This document shows, in pieces, positions 40,553-46,500 of a stretch of 64,000 nucleotides of DNA (positions are counted from its first letter, which is position 1; every line of letters starts with the position of its first letter). This DNA is from Lacunisphaera sp. (GTDB taxonomy: Bacteria; Verrucomicrobiota; Verrucomicrobiia; Opitutales; Opitutaceae), in contig JAQSCO010000005.1 of assembly GCA_029945445.1 (NCBI GenBank), positions 62,001 through 126,000 of the forward strand, given 5' to 3'. Both the position numbers and the translations under genes were made by a program. The notes under the pieces were generated by a model. The model saw only the letters and a list, made by a program, of their open reading frames with translations, ran no database searches and had not been told where the DNA came from.

Positions 40553-41431
40553 TCAGGCCAGCAGCCGCTTCAGGTATTCGCCGTAGGCGGACTTGCCGAG
40601 CTTCTTGATGTTGGCTTCGAGGCCGGCGCGGTCGATCCAGCCCTGCTTGTAGGCGATCTCCTCGATGCACGCGATCTTCAGGCCGGTGCGGTTCTCGAGG
40701 ACGTGGACAAACTGGGCGGCCTCAATGAGCGAGTCGTGCGTGCCGGTGTCGAGCCACGCGGTGCCACGGCCGAAAACCTCGACGTGCAGCTTGCCTTTCT
40801 CGAGGTAGAGCCGGTTGAGGTCCGTGATCTCAAGTTCGTTGCGCTTCGAGGGCTTGAGGCCGCGCGCGAGGGCGACGACATCCTGGTCGTAGAAATACAG
40901 GCCGGGCACGGCGTAGTTGGATTTGGGCTGCGCGGGTTTCTCCTCGAGTGAGAGCACGCGACCGTCCGGGGCGAACTCGACGACGCCGTAAGCCGTGGGG
41001 TTGGCGACATGGTAGCCGAAGATGGTGGCGCCGTCGGGGCGGGCGCTGGCCTCGGCGAGGGAGTGCACGAACTCGGCGCCGTAGAAAAGATTGTCGCCGA
41101 GGACGAGGGCGGAGGACTCCTTGCCGGTCAGGAAGCCGGTGTCGCCGGCGATGGTGAAGGCCTGCGCGAGGCCGTCGGGGCTGGGTTGCTCGGCATAGCT
41201 GAACTTGAGGCCGAGGTTGGCGCCGTCGCCGAGGAGCTTCTTGAAATTCGGCAGGTCGGTCGGCGTGGAGATGATGAGGATCTCGCGGATGCCGGCGAGC
41301 ATCAGCACCGACAGCGGATAATAGATCATCGGCTTGTCGTAGACCGGCATGAGCTGCTTGCTCACGGCGATGGTGAGGGGATAGAGGCGCGTGCCGGAGC
41401 CGCCAGCCAGGATGATTCCTTTGCGATTCAT
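40553..41431 (-). CDS. rfbA: glucose-1-phosphate thymidylyltransferase
   Basis: 292 residues from the ATG at 41431. It makes dTDP-glucose from glucose-1-phosphate and dTTP. Motifs are [47 protein letters not shown] and [11 protein letters not shown]; the length fits RmlA. A solo CACGAA repeat (41446-41470) lies 10-40 bases before its start. It is the last gene of the minus-strand deoxysugar run. Confidence 0.95.
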
Positions 41432-41440
41432 GTATGAGGG

Positions 41441-41472
41441 GTGCCCACGAAACACACGAAAACGCACGAAAG
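41441..41472. repeat. solo CACGAA-unit repeat before rfbA
   Basis: CACGAA at 41446, 41455 and 41465, that is spacing 9 then 10, the same spacing seen in the CGCGAA repeats at 41511, 41621, 42764 and 43186. It carries no partner repeat that I can see. Confidence 0.6.
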
Positions 41473-41510
41473 GTCAAAGCTGACCTGAAAAAATCAGGAG
41501 ATAAAGACGG

Positions 41511-41656
41511 TGAACCGCGAAAGGCGCGAAGAGACGCGAAGGTTTAAATGCGGGAGGCAGATAACCAAGGTAAGGTATCCCAAGGGCTGGAAGGAGCAGG
41601 CCCTGGCTGCATGTTGCCTTGCCACTTTCGCGAAACTTCGCGCTCTTCGCGGTTAA
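41511..41656. mobile_element. gene-less inverted-repeat element (MITE-like) of the CGCGAA family
   Basis: Left end 41511-41542 and right end 41625-41656 are inverted copies matching at about 24 of 31 positions, each with CGCGAA units at offsets 6, 15 and 25. The roughly 80-base interior has no coding capacity for a GxxExxY protein. A further one-unit partial copy follows at 41671-41687, next to the rfbB stop. It fills the rfbB-rfbA gap. Mobility is inferred from structure only. Confidence 0.55.
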
Positions 41657-41687
41657 TCATCTTCCGTCCGGCGCCCTTCGCGGTTGA

Positions 41688-42755
41688 TTACTTTCCGGTC
41701 CCCAACCTTTCCCGGGAGTATTTCTTGGCGGTGATGTCCGCCGCCCACGCGCGGTTCTGCAAATACCAATCCACGGTCTTCGCGATGCCGCTGGCGAAGG
41801 TCTCGCGCGGCTGCCAGCCGAGCTCGCGGTTGATCTTGGCGGCGTCGATGGCGTAGCGGCGGTCGTGGCCGGGGCGGTCGGTGACGTAGGTGATCTGGGA
41901 TTCGTAAGACTTGCCGTCGGCGCGCGGGGCCTTCTTGCCGAGCAGGGCGCAGATCGTCCGGACGATCTCGAGGTTCGGTTTTTCGTTCAGCCCGCCGATG
42001 TTGTAGGTCTCGCCGGCGCGGCCCTTGTTCAGCACGAGCCAGATGGCCGCGGCGTGGTCCTCGACGTAGAGCCAGTCGCGGATCTGCATGCCGTCGCCGT
42101 AGACCGGCAGCGGCTTGCCCTCGAGGGCGTTGAGGATCATCAGCGGGATGAGTTTTTCTGGGAAATGATACGGACCGTAGTTGTTCGAGCAGTTGGTGGT
42201 GAGCGTCGGCAGACCGTAGGTGTGCTGGTAGGCGCGGACGAGGTGGTCGCTCGCGGCCTTGGACGCGGCGTAAGGTGAGTTGGGCTCGAAGTTATGGTTC
42301 TCGGTGAAGGCCGGCGCGCCGGGCGCGAGCGAGCCGTAGACCTCGTCAGTCGAGACATGCAGGAAGCGGAAGACGGACTTCTTGGGCTCGGTCAGCTTCG
42401 TCCAGTATTGCTTCGTGCAGTTGAGCAGGCGGAGCGTGCCGATGACGTTGGTCTGGAGGAACGGCTCAGGCGAGTCGATGGAGCGGTCGACATGCGACTC
42501 GGCCGCGAAGTTGACGACCGCGTCGATCGCGTGTTCGACGAGGAGCTTGGTCACGAGGGTGGGGTCGCCGATGTCGCCGTGCGCGAAAACATAGCGCGGG
42601 TCGCCCGCGAGGTCCGCGAGGTTGGCCGGGTTGCCCGCGTAGGTGAGGGCGTCGAGGTTGACGAGTTTCGCCAGCGCGCAGCCTTTCTCGGTGAGCCTTT
42701 GCCGGATGAAATTAGAACCGATGAAGCCGCAGCCTCCTGTTACGAGTAAGTTCAT
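41688..42755 (-). CDS. rfbB: dTDP-glucose 4,6-dehydratase
   Basis: 355 residues from the ATG at 42755. It converts dTDP-glucose to dTDP-4-keto-6-deoxyglucose with bound NAD. Motifs are [39 protein letters not shown], and the YXXXK motif [13 protein letters not shown]. Upstream, 8 bases from the start, lies the left end of the first GxxExxY element. It belongs to the same run as rfbA and the epimerase-reductase gene at 43213. Confidence 0.96.
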
Positions 42756-42763
42756 GAAAATAA

Positions 42764-43216
42764 TTAACCGCGAAGGGCGCGAAAGGACGCGAAGGTTAGG
42801 AGTGGGAGAGGATGATCCGTTCCCATTCGAGGCGGGGATAGGAGCCAAAGTTGACCAGCAGGCCGAGGGGCAAACCGGTGACTTTGAGGTAATTCATTAA
42901 TTGGGCCCGATGCTCATCGGTCAAGGCTTTGGCCGCTTTCAGCTCGACGATGATTTTGTCGAAGCAAAGCAGGTCGGGGGTATAGCTATGCTTTAAAGGC
43001 CGCTCACGGTAGTGGATCTGGTAATTCCGTTGGGCATCGAACGGTATGCCGAAAAGTTCCAGTTCGATCTCGAGGGCATCCTGGTAAACCGGTTCGACAA
43101 ACCCGTTGCCCTTGTCTTTGTGCACCGCCATGCAGGCGCCGATAATGCGAACCTCGTCGCGGTAGAGCAGGTCGTCCGGCATGGTCTTCGCGATACTTCG
43201 CGTCCTTCGCGGTTAA
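42764..43216 (-). mobile_element. GxxExxY element A: gene bracketed by inverted CGCGAA repeats
   Basis: The left arm (42764-42795) and right arm (43186-43216) start with TTAACCGCGAAGG on opposite strands and match at about 26 of 31 positions, with CGCGAA units at offsets 6, 15 and 25 in both. The gene fills the interior: the left arm ends at its stop codon and the right arm ends three bases before its start. The outer TTAA of the right arm includes the stop codon of the epimerase-reductase gene. No target duplication is obvious. Confidence 0.6.
42796..43182 (-). CDS. GxxExxY protein (PD-(D/E)XK-like), copy A
   Basis: 128 residues. The family signature is GFVEPVY (Gly 27, Glu 30, Tyr 33). The nuclease-like core follows as [21 protein letters not shown] (Asp 70, Glu 80, Lys 82) and [17 protein letters not shown] (Gln 94), ending LLVNFGS. 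This Asp-Glu-x-Lys-Gln set is that of the PD-(D/E)XK superfamily. GxxExxY proteins are common and multi-copy in verrucomicrobia and related groups, and their function is not established. The start is preceded by CGAAGACC, contributed by the repeat arm. It is co-oriented with the rfb genes. Confidence 0.85.
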
Positions 43217-44085
43217 ACCGCCTTGACCCAGCGGCGGAGGTCGCGTTCGACGGCCTCGTGCACCTCGGTGAGCTTGATGCCGGTGGCGGCGAGCTTGCGG
43301 GCGTCCATCACGCAGTTGGACCGCGGCGTCTTGGCGGCCTTGCTCATGAAGTCGGCCTCGTTCTCGAAGAACTTGAAGTCCTTCTGCGAGACGCCGGTCT
43401 TCTTGATGAGTTCGACAACCTCGTGCGTGGTGACCTGGCCGGGATTGGTGACGTTGTAGGTGCCGAACGGCACGCGCTGCTCCCAGCAGGCGAGCGTGGC
43501 GGCAACGAATTCGTCGAGCTGCGAGATGGAGTTGGTGGCCTCGAGCAGGTTCGCGTAGCGCATAAGCTTGCTGAGATAGTTGCGCGCATTGTCCACCTCG
43601 TTGAACGGGATACGCAGGCGCCAGATGAACACATTCGGCACGCCGGCGAGCACCTCCTCGCCGAGGCCCTTGGTGCCGGAGTAGAAGCTGCAGTTGTCCG
43701 TGCGGAAGGTGAAGTTCGGGGTGTCGGTCTCGCTGAAGCCGGTGCCGTCGGGCCGGGCGCCGGTGTAGATGCAGCCGGAGGACACGTGGCCCCAGGGCAC
43801 GCCGGCGTCGGTGCAGGCCGCGGCGACGGTGCCGGGCAGGACGGCGTTGCCGGCGAGGCACTCGGCCTTGTGCAGCTCGCAGGCGTCGACGTTCGGCTTG
43901 CCGGTATAGCCGGCGGCGTTGATGAGGAAGGCGGGCTGCTCGCGGCGCAGGAGCTCCGTCAGCGCGGTCCGGTCGGTGTAGTCAAAGTCGGCCCGCCGCA
44001 CGTTGCGGAAGGGGAGGCCGCGGCGCGTGAGCAGCGCCTGGTAGGCCGAACCGACATAACCTGAGCCACCGAGCAGATAAATCAT
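43213..44085 (-). CDS. NRS/ER-like nucleotide-4-keto-6-deoxyglucose 3,5-epimerase/4-reductase
   Basis: 290 residues, extended SDR. The Rossmann loop is LLGGSGYVGSAY and the catalytic pair lies in FYSGTKG (Tyr 135, Lys 139). The blocks FLINAAGYTGKPNVDACELHK, SSGCIYTGARPDG, ETDTPNFTF, RLRIPFNEVDNARNYLSKL and YNVTNPGQVTTHE resemble plant NRS/ER and the C-terminal half of RHM rhamnose synthases more than bacterial RmlD. Those enzymes carry out both 3,5-epimerisation and 4-reduction. Since rfbA and rfbB are adjacent and no rfbC is present here, a bifunctional role making the rhamnose nucleotide is likely. Plain RmlD-like reductase is the alternative. Confidence 0.75.
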   Translation of the reverse strand: MIYLLGGSGYVGSAYQALLTRRGLPFRNVRRADFDYTDRTALTELLRREQPAFLINAAGYTGKPNVDACELHKAECLAGNAVLPGTVAAACTDAGVPWGHVSSGCIYTGARPDGTGFSETDTPNFTFRTDNCSFYSGTKGLGEEVLAGVPNVFIWRLRIPFNEVDNARNYLSKLMRYANLLEATNSISQLDEFVAATLACWEQRVPFGTYNVTNPGQVTTHEVVELIKKTGVSQKDFKFFENEADFMSKAAKTPRSNCVMDARKLAATGIKLTEVHEAVERDLRRWVKAV

Positions 44086-44106
44086 GGGAAATTAAAATGA
44101 GAGTAA

Positions 44107-44144
44107 GGCACCATTGCTGGCTGCGGCCAGCCCGGTGTTTGTCC
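44107..44144. repeat. 38-nt hairpin repeat, copy 2
   Basis: GGCACCATTGC, a hairpin (GCTGGC, loop TGCG, GCCAGC), then CCGGTGTTTGTCC. Same length and flanks as the copy at 9097-9134, but the stem differs by paired changes. It lies between the GT2 gene at 44217 and the epimerase-reductase gene. Confidence 0.7.
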
Positions 44145-44216
44145 GGGCCGGTCGCCCGGCAAAGGGAATGAGGCTCCGGCCGAAGGTCAATCTGCAGTTT
44201 TCCGACCGGCGGCCGG

Positions 44217-44978
44217 TCACTTTTTCCGGTAGTCGCCGCGGCTGAAATACTTTTCCAGCCAGACGTAGGCGCAGATGAAGAAATAGCGGCTGCCCATCTC
44301 CTTGATCTTGAGCTTGGCCTCGCCGTATTTGCGGTTCTGCCACGAGATGGGGATGACCGTCCAGGTGAAGCCGCGCACGATGGCCTTGAGCGGGAGCTCG
44401 ACGGTGAGGTTGAAGTGCGGCGCCATCAGCGGCCGGCAACCGTCGATGACCGTGCGCCGGTAGGCCTTGAAGGCGTTGGTCGTGTCGTTGAGCGCGATGT
44501 TGAAGCCGATCCGGACGAGGAAATTCGCGAGGCGATTCACGTAGAGTTTCACCCTTGGGTAGTCGATGACCTGGCCCCCCTTGACGAACCGGCTGCCGAA
44601 GACGCAGTCCCAGCCCTCGTTGAGCAGGCGCCAGTAACGCACGGCGTCGGCCGGCGAGTCGGAGGCGTCGGCCATCATGATGGTGCAGGCGTCGCCCGCC
44701 ATGTGGTTGAGGCCGTATTGTACGGCGCGGCCGAAGCCGTTCGGGCCGGGGTTCTGCACCGGCGCGAGCGTGGGGAATTTCTGCTTCAGCTCCTGCAGCA
44801 CGGTCCAGGTCCGGTCCTTGCTGCCATCGTCCACCACGACGATCTCATGCGGCACGCCTTCGCGCAGCATCACGGCGTAGATGTCCGCCACGGTGGGCGG
44901 CAGCGACTCCTCCTCGTTGTGCGCAGGGATGACGATGCTGTAGAGCTTGAGCGGTGCGGGCTGGGTGGTCGGTTGCAC
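44217..44978 (-). CDS. GT2-family (dolichol-phosphate mannosyltransferase-like) glycosyltransferase
   Basis: 253 residues. Motifs are YSIVIPAHNEEESLPPTV, IVVVDDGSKDRTWTVL, GFGRAVQYGLNHMAGD, and the metal-binding MMADASDSPAD. No C-terminal TM pair is present, unlike the ArnC-like gene at 38491, although AYVWLEKYF is hydrophobic. It would transfer a sugar to a polyprenyl phosphate or a lipid-linked chain. It lies 48 bases after the second GxxExxY gene in the same orientation. Confidence 0.85.
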   Translation of the reverse strand: MQPTTQPAPLKLYSIVIPAHNEEESLPPTVADIYAVMLREGVPHEIVVVDDGSKDRTWTVLQELKQKFPTLAPVQNPGPNGFGRAVQYGLNHMAGDACTIMMADASDSPADAVRYWRLLNEGWDCVFGSRFVKGGQVIDYPRVKLYVNRLANFLVRIGFNIALNDTTNAFKAYRRTVIDGCRPLMAPHFNLTVELPLKAIVRGFTWTVIPISWQNRKYGEAKLKIKEMGSRYFFICAYVWLEKYFSRGDYRKK

Positions 44979-44992
44979 GGGTAGATTAGGGA

Positions 44993-45423
44993 TTCACCAC
45001 GAAGGCACGAAGAAACACAGGGAAGGTCAGAGGACGAGACGTTTCAATCCTTGCCGGAGCAACGGCACGTTGAAATTGACCAGCAAGCCGATTTTGAGGC
45101 CGGAAAGTCGCAGGTAGGTAAGGAGCTGGGCGTCATGGATGGGCAGAAGTGCATCAACCGACTTGAGCTCGAGCACCAGACTTTTCTCTATGACGAAATC
45201 CATCCGGTAGGCGCAATCGAGGGCCAAGCCTTTATAGCGCACCGGCAATGGCACCTCGGACTCAAAGGGAATATTTGCCGCCTTCAATTCATAGGCCAGG
45301 CAGGACGGATAGGCTGATTCGAGCAAACCCGGACCAAGCTCACGATGCACTTCGAGCATCAGGCCGATCACGCGATTTGAAACAGGATCGAATTCCATGC
45401 GGTCTTCGTGCCTTCGTGGTGAA
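44993..45423 (-). mobile_element. GxxExxY element B: gene bracketed by perfect 21-bp CACGAA inverted repeats
   Basis: TTCACCACGAAGGCACGAAG plus A at 44993-45013 is repeated exactly, inverted, at 45403-45423. The gene occupies almost all of the interior: 13 bases separate its stop from the left arm, and 4 bases separate the right arm from its ATG. The overall plan matches element A, but the unit is CACGAA rather than CGCGAA. Mobility is inferred from structure only. Confidence 0.65.
45027..45398 (-). CDS. GxxExxY protein (PD-(D/E)XK-like), copy B
   Basis: 123 residues. Signature GLLESAY (Gly 24, Glu 27, Tyr 30); core YRMDFVIEKSLVLELKSVDAL (Asp 67, Glu 77, Lys 79), IHDAQLLTYLRLSGLKIG (Gln 91) and LLVNFNVPLL. 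It is only moderately similar to copy A, so the two are not a recent duplication. The start is preceded by CGAAGACCGC, the inner end of the repeat arm. It is co-oriented with the glycan genes on both sides. Confidence 0.88.
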   Translation of the reverse strand: MEFDPVSNRVIGLMLEVHRELGPGLLESAYPSCLAYELKAANIPFESEVPLPVRYKGLALDCAYRMDFVIEKSLVLELKSVDALLPIHDAQLLTYLRLSGLKIGLLVNFNVPLLRQGLKRLVL

Positions 45424-45429
45424 CAAGGC

Positions 45430-46500
45430 TTACGACGGCGAGGACAACTCGAGCCAGCCGGGGTGCTGCTCCGCGTGCGTGGCGATTTCCTCGAGGATGG
45501 CGGCGGTCGGGGTCACCGGCGACCAGTCCCAGACGCGTCGGGCCTTGGCGGGATCGAGCACGATCCACGGGATGTCGAACGGCCGCGGGGTGCCGTCCTG
45601 CACGACGGGGTGCGGGCCGAAGCGCGCCGCGCACCAGTCGCTGAGCTGCCGGAGCGACATCGCGGAGGCGGCGCCGCCGGAGAAATTGGCGAGCCGGTCG
45701 CCCACGGGGAGCTTGGGTGCGGCGAATTGTTTTTCGAGCACCGGCACAAGGTCGCGCGGGTGGAGGCAGTCGCGCACCTGGTGGCCGAGGCCGCCGAAGC
45801 CGAGGTATTTCAGCGGACGCTTCCGCAGCCAGCTGTTGATCCAGAAGGAAAAGATGCCTTGGTCGGCGCGGCCGAACTGGCCGGCGCCCGCGAGCACGCC
45901 GCAGCGGTTGATGAAGACGGGGAAGCCGAACGTCTCGCCGTATTCGAGCGCGAGCGCCTCGGAGGCGAACTTGGTGGCGCCGTAGAGCGAGATGGGCGCC
46001 GCGGTGGCGAAGGTCTCGTCGAGGCCGGCGGGGCTCAGGCCAGGCGAGAGGCGAGCGGCCAGAGGCGAGAGGCGAAAGGCATTGTTTCCCACCACGACTT
46101 CCAAGCGGGCGAGCGGGCCGATCGAATAGACCCGGCTGGTCGAGAGGAGGATGAAGCCCGCGCGGTGGACCTTGCAGTATTCGAGCAGGTTCACTGTGCC
46201 GCTGAGGTTGTGGTCCACGAGCTCGCGCGAGCTCGTCTGGCCGTCGATGCCGGCGAGGACGCTCGGGTTGGCGGCGGCGTCGAGCACGAACTCGGCGGCG
46301 GGCAGCGCGTCGATCTGCGGCGCGAAGCGGAGGTCGGCGGTGATGACCTTGATGCCCAGTTTTTCCAGCGGCTCGCGGTTGGTCTGGCTGCCGGGGCGGA
46401 TGAAATTGTCGAAGCCGCACACCGTGTGACCGGCGGCGTGCAGCGCCCGGGCGAGGGTACTGCCGGCAAAGCCACAGATGCCGGAAATCAGAATGCGCAT
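45430..46500 (-). CDS. NAD-dependent epimerase, CDP-paratose 2-epimerase-like
   Basis: 356 residues, extended SDR. Motifs are ILISGICGFAGSTLARAL, GFDNFIRPGS, FVLDAAANPSVLAGID, LSTSRVYSIGPLA, and SLYGATKFASE (Tyr and Lys). The block NRCGVLAGAGQFGRADQG with KYLGFGGLGHQVRDCLHP is characteristic of CDP-paratose/tyvelose 2-epimerases and relatives. The true sugar need not be tyvelose. A GA-rich tandem repeat (46042-46079) encodes residues about 142-156 (FRLSPLAARLSPGLS). It ends 7 bases before the right repeat arm of element B. Confidence 0.8.
   Translation of the reverse strand: MRILISGICGFAGSTLARALHAAGHTVCGFDNFIRPGSQTNREPLEKLGIKVITADLRFAPQIDALPAAEFVLDAAANPSVLAGIDGQTSSRELVDHNLSGTVNLLEYCKVHRAGFILLSTSRVYSIGPLARLEVVVGNNAFRLSPLAARLSPGLSPAGLDETFATAAPISLYGATKFASEALALEYGETFGFPVFINRCGVLAGAGQFGRADQGIFSFWINSWLRKRPLKYLGFGGLGHQVRDCLHPRDLVPVLEKQFAAPKLPVGDRLANFSGGAASAMSLRQLSDWCAARFGPHPVVQDGTPRPFDIPWIVLDPAKARRVWDWSPVTPTAAILEEIATHAEQHPGWLELSSPS

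Follow-up and report, generated by a model that had tools for sequence, protein, structure and literature searches.

What are the short, evenly repeated CGCGAA and CACGAA units that stand on both sides of a small gene beside rfbD in this Lacunisphaera genome, and do they belong to the gene that they enclose? The window, by which we mean the whole stretch of 64,000 nucleotides analysed here (G000:C5:62001-126000), comes from a genome of 4.17 Mb and was scanned on both strands for the pattern CRCGAA-N3-CRCGAA-N4-CRCGAA with up to two mismatches, using shuffled sequence as a control. Five matches were found, at 41446 (+, CACGAA), 41516 (+), 41627 (-), 42769 (+) and 43187 (-), and every one was exact, compared with a mean of 0.09 and a maximum of 1 in the shuffles. 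This bears out the initial annotation, which had described five ends with units at offsets 0, 9 and 19 (its end coordinates take in a few bases beyond the first unit) and had read 41511-41656 as a copy with both ends and no gene; no cassette gene lies between those arms. The five ends form two converging pairs, one gene-less and one around a nuclease gene, together with a single left arm at 41446 (Table 1). The latter is not a free-standing end, because the relative G004 holds a whole gene-less CACGAA element in the gap of that arm (113 bases), where the left arm is followed by the same bases as judged by eye. Gene-less CGCGAA-type pairs also occupy the slot of 41511-41656 in relatives G017, G011 and G029. 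A second GxxExxY element (44993-45423), overlooked by the initial annotation, uses a different unit from the first at 8-base spacing, and the neighbours of the window's elements are co-directional protein genes.

Table 1. Arms, genes and gene-less elements located in the window (position 1 is its first nucleotide).
Feature	Position	Strand	Remarks
Left arm, decayed gene-less element	41444-41472	+	CACGAA three times, at offsets 0/9/19; no right arm remains
Gene-less element	41511-41656	.	Converging arms 41516-41540 and 41627-41651, three CGCGAA units each
Partial additional right-type arm, ~1.5 units	41670-41685	-	Read from sequence
Left arm, gene-bearing element 42764-43216	42764-42795	+	Three CGCGAA units
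GxxExxY / PDDEXK_3 gene (128 aa) for a predicted nuclease of Cas4/RecB fold	42796-43182	-	Profile matches, predicted structure
Right arm, gene-bearing element 42764-43216	43183-43216	-	GGTTAA end provides the stop codon of neighbour rfbD (minus strand)
Left arm, second GxxExxY element	44993-45026	+	CACGAA units 8 apart
Second GxxExxY gene, 123 aa	45027-45398	-	Profile matches
Right arm, second GxxExxY element	45399-45423	-	Paired with left arm 44993-45026

Two further features of the region were noted in passing. The TTAACC end of a cassette and the stop codon of the adjoining gene overlap both at 43183-43216 and in a slot on another contig (E3, below), and a dispersed repeat at 44107-44163, between rfbD and the next gene, has short copies at 89-97% identity elsewhere in the genome and in relatives.

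The enclosed gene at 42796-43182 matches TIGR04256 (GxxExxY) at 1.3e-40 and PF13366 at 1.2e-39. The window's two genes score 138.4 and 143.9 bits against TIGR04256 (curated cut-off 35) and 135.8 and 140.2 bits against PF13366 (PDDEXK_3; curated cut-off 22). Residues E30, D70, E80, K82 and Y98 are invariant among 51 GxxExxY sequences, and the order D..(E/D)xK..QxxxY, of which QxxxY is a RecB-family motif, is present in 162 of 176. The AlphaFold2 model of the 128-aa protein has a pLDDT of 93.5, and its best solved match is SSO0001 (4ic1), which we take to be of the Cas4 family, at E 2.7e-4 and a TM of 0.60 on the query. The structural resemblance to Cas4 is moderate, as the four matches at E 0.001 or below are all chains of this one entry; lambda exonuclease, LHK-Exo and Cas4 follow at E above 0.001. 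Taken together, motif and model predict that GxxExxY is a compact PD-(D/E)XK nuclease related in type to Cas4 and RecB. The dN/dS values in the rfbB-rfbD slot, computable for 6 of 15 pairs with the other nine saturated, were 0.06-0.14, which indicates purifying selection on the nuclease gene. Four proteins searched against the PADLOC defence library gave no match, and against the PHROGs phage library gave a single weak match to an endonuclease and a single match to Avd. GxxExxY is carried by at least 52 of 61 Opitutaceae genomes, and the TIGR02436 four-helix-bundle family, to which we return below, by at least 51 of 61.

Searching the whole genome with the same tolerance of two mismatches gave 44 triple-unit matches against 3 with the reversed pattern. 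Within 600 bp these 44 form 13 pairs that converge, 1 that is tandem and none that diverges, and 11 of the 13 converging pairs, spanning 53-136 bp, lack the gene, so that the paired ends without genes which the initial annotation proposed to look for genome-wide do exist; GxxExxY lies inside the other two. Independently of this pattern, nine GxxExxY matches representing eight loci were identified, and by eye all eight are flanked by converging unit arrays whose words differ: CGCGAAG, CACGAAGG, CACGAATGAA, CGCGAAT, GCGGAAA, CGCAAAG, CACAAAA and an 8-spaced CGCGAAG. By the same inspection, none of the eight is a gene-bearing partner with the same word for the gene-less CACGAAA copies. Some gene-less cassettes (L010, L014 and L344) have a CATTCTGAGCGAAGCGAAGAATCC-type repeat in their interiors, and L013 contains a REP-like repeat in common with the flank of a RAYT-type match (L102).

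The arms share an architecture that is regular without being rigid. When the gaps are left free, the genome contains 38 exact CRCGAA triples (control 1), and their spans are 25 bases (9+10) in 19, 26 bases (10+10) in 8, 22-24 bases in 9 and long in 2. The 9+10 spacing reported for every end thus holds for the five ends of the window and for only 19 of the 38 exact triples genome-wide, and the data do not support the fixed helical spacing drawn from it: the spacing is mostly 8+8, 9+9, 9+10 or 10+10 and varies by element, and with units mostly 8-10 bases apart, depending on the element, strict helical phasing was rejected as a general rule. Variable unit number and spacing together with a lack of pairing had been named as evidence against the initial reading; the spacing was found to vary, and the pairing is strong. 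Among loci with an arm score of at least 30 (the score is defined below), to which the counts of arms, spacing and T-runs refer, triple units occur in 87% of 157 family arms and 92% of 108 GTDB arms, compared with 4% and 11% of shuffled arms. The most frequent spacings were 9+9 (30), 8+8 (29), 9+10 (23) and 10+10 (22) in the family (n=136) and 9+9 (49) and 9+10 (31) at GTDB loci (n=99). Both arms have equal spacing in 51 of 60 family elements and 37 of 48 GTDB elements, a result that is partly by construction since the arms were found by alignment. A T-run precedes the first unit at -8 to -4 at left and right ends alike: T makes up 0.29-0.68 there (119 left and 114 right arms were counted) and 0.20 in the outer flanks. 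The unit word varies between elements, yet agrees across both ends of one element. Of the 82 CRCTAAT-type triples listed outside genome G005, 73 have the same second base in all their units, where 36.6 would be expected if the units were independent.

To score how well two ends fit each other, we aligned the left arm with the reverse complement of the right arm in 170 bp flanks and set a threshold of 30. Scores at or above this were reached by 79 of 96 GxxExxY loci in the family and own genome and by 54 of 79 GTDB loci, leaving 17 and 25 below it, and when arm partners were swapped only 6.4% and 7.2% reached it, respectively (1000 draws each). Displaced controls reached a score of 32 in 0 of 17, 0 of 74 and about 2 of 330 cases. 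Examples of GTDB loci above 30 come from Singulisphaera acidiphila, Nitrosomonas mobilis, Lentisphaera, Desulfobotulus alkaliphilus, Tamlana agarivorans, Marinifilum, Pyrinomonadaceae, Cloacimonadota and Neomarinimicrobiota, with the taxon labels of metagenome bins accepted as given. From the other family genomes, 89 GxxExxY and 29 four-helix matches were used, among the matches listed; the interrupted GxxExxY at L038/L039 and L201, with a flank under 60 bases, were set aside from the scoring.

The ends also go with the gene between them. For pairs without a common outer flank, and again at loci with an arm score of at least 30, protein identity and arm similarity were correlated with a Mantel r of 0.51 in the family (n=79) and 0.51 at GTDB loci (n=54), a value reached by 0 of 500 permutations. 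Linked inheritance alone would give such a correlation, and it therefore shows that gene and arms form a unit, not that one recognises the other; the link could be simple co-inheritance. Among the 162 family pairs with at least 65% protein identity, 121 have a flank in common and no common flank was detected in 41 (using flanks of 330 bp at 60 loci and up to 1330 bp elsewhere), so movement is rare or old. The initial annotation had taken the ends for multi-site protein-binding DNA; that they fit each other and accompany the enclosed gene is compatible with recognition by a protein, and stops short of proof.

The most interesting rival explanation, although one that we consider quite unlikely, is that the cassettes act as RNA, like the intervening sequences of 23S rRNA. 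The arms would pair in the transcript and RNase III would cut out the hairpin, whereby an insert in an operon is tolerated and base pairing keeps the ends matched. The matching of arms within an element agrees with this, as does the four-helix (S23-like) cargo, which is that of the rRNA intervening sequences; part of the account of the Coxiella example describes tandem heptamers before the S23 ORF and excision by RNase III (PMC4990558). However, arm-mismatch transitions on the gene strand, counted at loci with an arm score of at least 30, were G-U compatible in 95 cases and not in 151, and the opposite strand would fit better. No p-value is attached to this count because related elements are not independent, but its direction is opposite to that expected, and with this proviso RNA pairing on the gene strand was rejected. 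Additionally, in slot E1 the right arm appears by eye to be constant in three species as the left-arm units change, and Rfam gave no match in window positions 41000-45700.

The comparison of occupied with empty sites that the initial annotation had called for found slots that are empty in some relatives. The rfbB-rfbD gap was surveyed at 20 loci in 19 genomes and holds GxxExxY in 7 (internally deleted in G017) and a four-helix gene in 3 (G014, G009 and G005); one of the two G026 loci has a short pair there, and 9 loci contain, by eye, nothing or nearly nothing, three of which (G016, G018 and G003) have a divergent rfbB. In G029, which is among the seven, the GxxExxY gene adjoins rfbB and rfbD was not found. 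In the same relatives the rfbA-rfbB gap has gene-less pairs with the words CGCGAA, CACGAAA, CACAGAG and others, or a four-helix gene in G035, G008, G002 and one G026 locus. Three slots on contig C51 were read by eye. E1, in 16 relatives, has cassettes with at least five words in 10, is empty in 4, has a four-helix gene in 1 (G014) and no recognisable element in 1; E2, in 10 relatives, has cassettes in 7 (G020 with one clear arm), is empty in 1 and has none in 2; and E3, in 14 relatives, has clear cassettes in 6, a degenerate one in 1, other sequences in 2 and is empty in 5.

Occupied slots can also change their contents. In 10 family genomes GxxExxY occupies slot S10, and although the flanks on both sides are related in 45 of 45 pairs, the words are CGCGAAT, CACGAAA and CACGGAA. 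Between our genome and G014, of the same genus, the left flank is 89%, the right flank 76% and the gene 66% identical, compared with 84%, 74% and 76% between our genome and G067 (local alignments of unequal length). The disagreement of gene and flanks implies that cassettes were exchanged within the slot, or that different copies were kept. On a quick tree built from few columns, the S10 proteins form one group containing besides them only the two S2b proteins; 5 changes are required for S18, where 120 of 153 pairs are related in both flanks, and 6 for S14 (23 of 91 pairs, possibly two merged slots). In slot E3 all six units read CGCTAAT in G018 and G004 and CACTAAT in G017. We considered in-place change of the units, and replacement of the cassette would be the simpler reading, because in S10 the gene and its arms change as one, at odds with the flanks.

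These slots also bear on a more conservative explanation, in which the arrays are immobile regulatory or nucleoid-binding repeats owned by the host and the gene between them is incidental. Inheritance is indeed mostly vertical and the window's elements lie between co-directional genes, but empty slots, the disagreement of gene and flanks inside one slot, and words private to an element and not to a genome make this very improbable. No clear target-site duplication was found at the junctions compared, where the relatives are divergent and exact joints are blurred because most flanks are only about 78-93% identical, no transposition intermediate was seen, and the plasmids sought for near-identical occupied and empty pairs (8 records) were all less than 60% identical. 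As the ends pair and converge, gene-less pairs outnumber gene-bearing ones and slots are empty in some relatives, the proposal of the initial annotation that gene-less copies are non-autonomous relatives (MITE-like) is a reasonable one. The GxxExxY elements, whose ends are of like kind, would be candidates for the autonomous partner.

The same layout surrounds a second, unrelated gene family. The genome has eight TIGR02436 four-helix matches, and by eye seven of them are laid out like the GxxExxY cassettes, L040-L046 having converging arrays of other words (e.g., TCACTCATCAC, GACTACGGACCAC and CCATTGTTCATT), one word set per locus; the layout is weakest at L046 and L047 is without it. With these two partial matches set aside, median arm-match scores were 34.5 in the genome (n=6) and 33 in the family (n=29), compared with 16 and 17 when swapped, and 3 of 6 and 19 of 29 loci reached 32. 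A layout common to two unrelated cargo families could mean that the arms are ordinary terminal repeats, moved in trans by an unrelated transposase, and that GxxExxY and four-helix genes are passengers protecting or regulating the element. One candidate mover was sought among RAYT-type genes. The genome has five PF01797 matches (L098-L102), three above the cut-off and two below, and in the 500-600 bp inspected none of the five has the arms of these cassettes; by eye their flanks carry classical REP-like repeats of their own. As the PF01797 loci have no ends in common with the cassettes in those 500-600 bp, RAYT was rejected as the mover.

A burst of similar copies in G005 (L379-L398) has CGCTAAT triples, conserved outer sequences of about 20 bp per end and doubtful 5-base duplications seen by eye, and looks like a recently active MITE containing a periodic-unit element. 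Given these extra outer sequences, some other transposase may do the moving there, a warning that something else, too, can carry the arms. The burst thus speaks for passive cargo, whereas the separate flanks of the PF01797 loci and the way in which arm similarity follows protein similarity from slot to slot speak against it. Having surveyed the GxxExxY and four-helix loci, the rfb-gap slots and E1-E3 for cargo, we regard it as rather unlikely.

To the observed pairing and matching of ends, the linkage between gene and ends across sites, the slot polymorphism between species and the selection on the gene, the reading that we favour adds mobility and end recognition. It is that of a mobile, MITE-like class of cassettes whose ends belong with their own Cas4/RecB-fold nuclease, and we hold it tentatively, at a little short of even confidence. 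A full cassette would be a GxxExxY gene between two inverted arms, each usually of three 6-7-base units placed 8-10 bases apart, often after a T-run and RNC. Each cassette lineage would have its own unit word and spacing, equal at both ends, with the word following the protein lineage, and gene-less cassettes (53-136 bp here) would be non-autonomous copies or remnants. The cassettes would occupy short intergenic gaps, sometimes at a stop codon, in slots that are emptied, re-occupied and exchanged over evolution. We infer that the exonuclease-like nuclease may bind the arms, with the word as an address, and process the DNA ends as the cassette is copied or exchanged into slots, acting in cis and also serving gene-less copies in trans. 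A broader version of this, which is possible and more doubtful, has mobile cassettes across many phyla in which a mini Cas4/RecB-fold nuclease recognises and moves its own ends, the three-word address changes along with it, and slots are contested by the four-helix-bundle family, whose gene is known from rRNA intervening sequences and resembles the Avd proteins of DGRs.

Placing GxxExxY and TIGR02436 genes in cassettes with element-specific, self-matching ends gives both families a context that can be tested. GxxExxY has been reported, in part of one account, as a domain beside reverse transcriptase (PMC8934634). Among titles and the openings of abstracts, a scope that takes in few subscription papers and no preprints, we did not find these cassettes described, and the partial texts within that scope give no role for GxxExxY. 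The cassettes may represent mobile DNA of a kind that has seldom been noticed in bacteria, and seeing them as such may connect short intergenic repeats, so far reported here and there, with cargo genes. If the nuclease does read the arms, they would offer a natural set of nuclease-address pairs.

Several known systems resemble the cassettes in part. The TAACTGA repeats of Beggiatoaceae, cyanobacteria and Bacteroidetes are direct repeats of a short word that lie mostly between genes and close to start codons, treated in the available part of their description as possible regulatory sites with a possible translational role (PMC4679880). In that part they differ from cassette arms in being described as direct, with one inverted case only, and four-helix-bundle or S23 genes are not mentioned (PMC4679880). 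GxxExxY is predicted to have a fold like that of Cas4, lambda exonuclease and RecB nucleases, with a similar order of active-site residues, but it is about 60% of their length and at E 0.01 its sequence matched none of the solved chains. The 23S rRNA intervening sequences of Coxiella and Leptospira, with their S23 four-helix ORF, likewise have a small ORF in the loop between inverted repeats, whereas the cassettes examined sit between protein genes, have a predicted nuclease as cargo and use a word private to each element. REP/REPIN sequences with their RAYT are paired, inverted and intergenic and come in autonomous and non-autonomous forms, as the cassettes appear to; in contrast, the Y1 transposase matches of this genome have their own repeats, and cassette arms are tandem units and not simple palindromes. 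MITEs derived from insertion sequences are also short gene-less copies with terminal inverted repeats. The cassettes differ from them in ends built as arrays of short units and in a full form that encodes a predicted PD-(D/E)XK nuclease and not a transposase.
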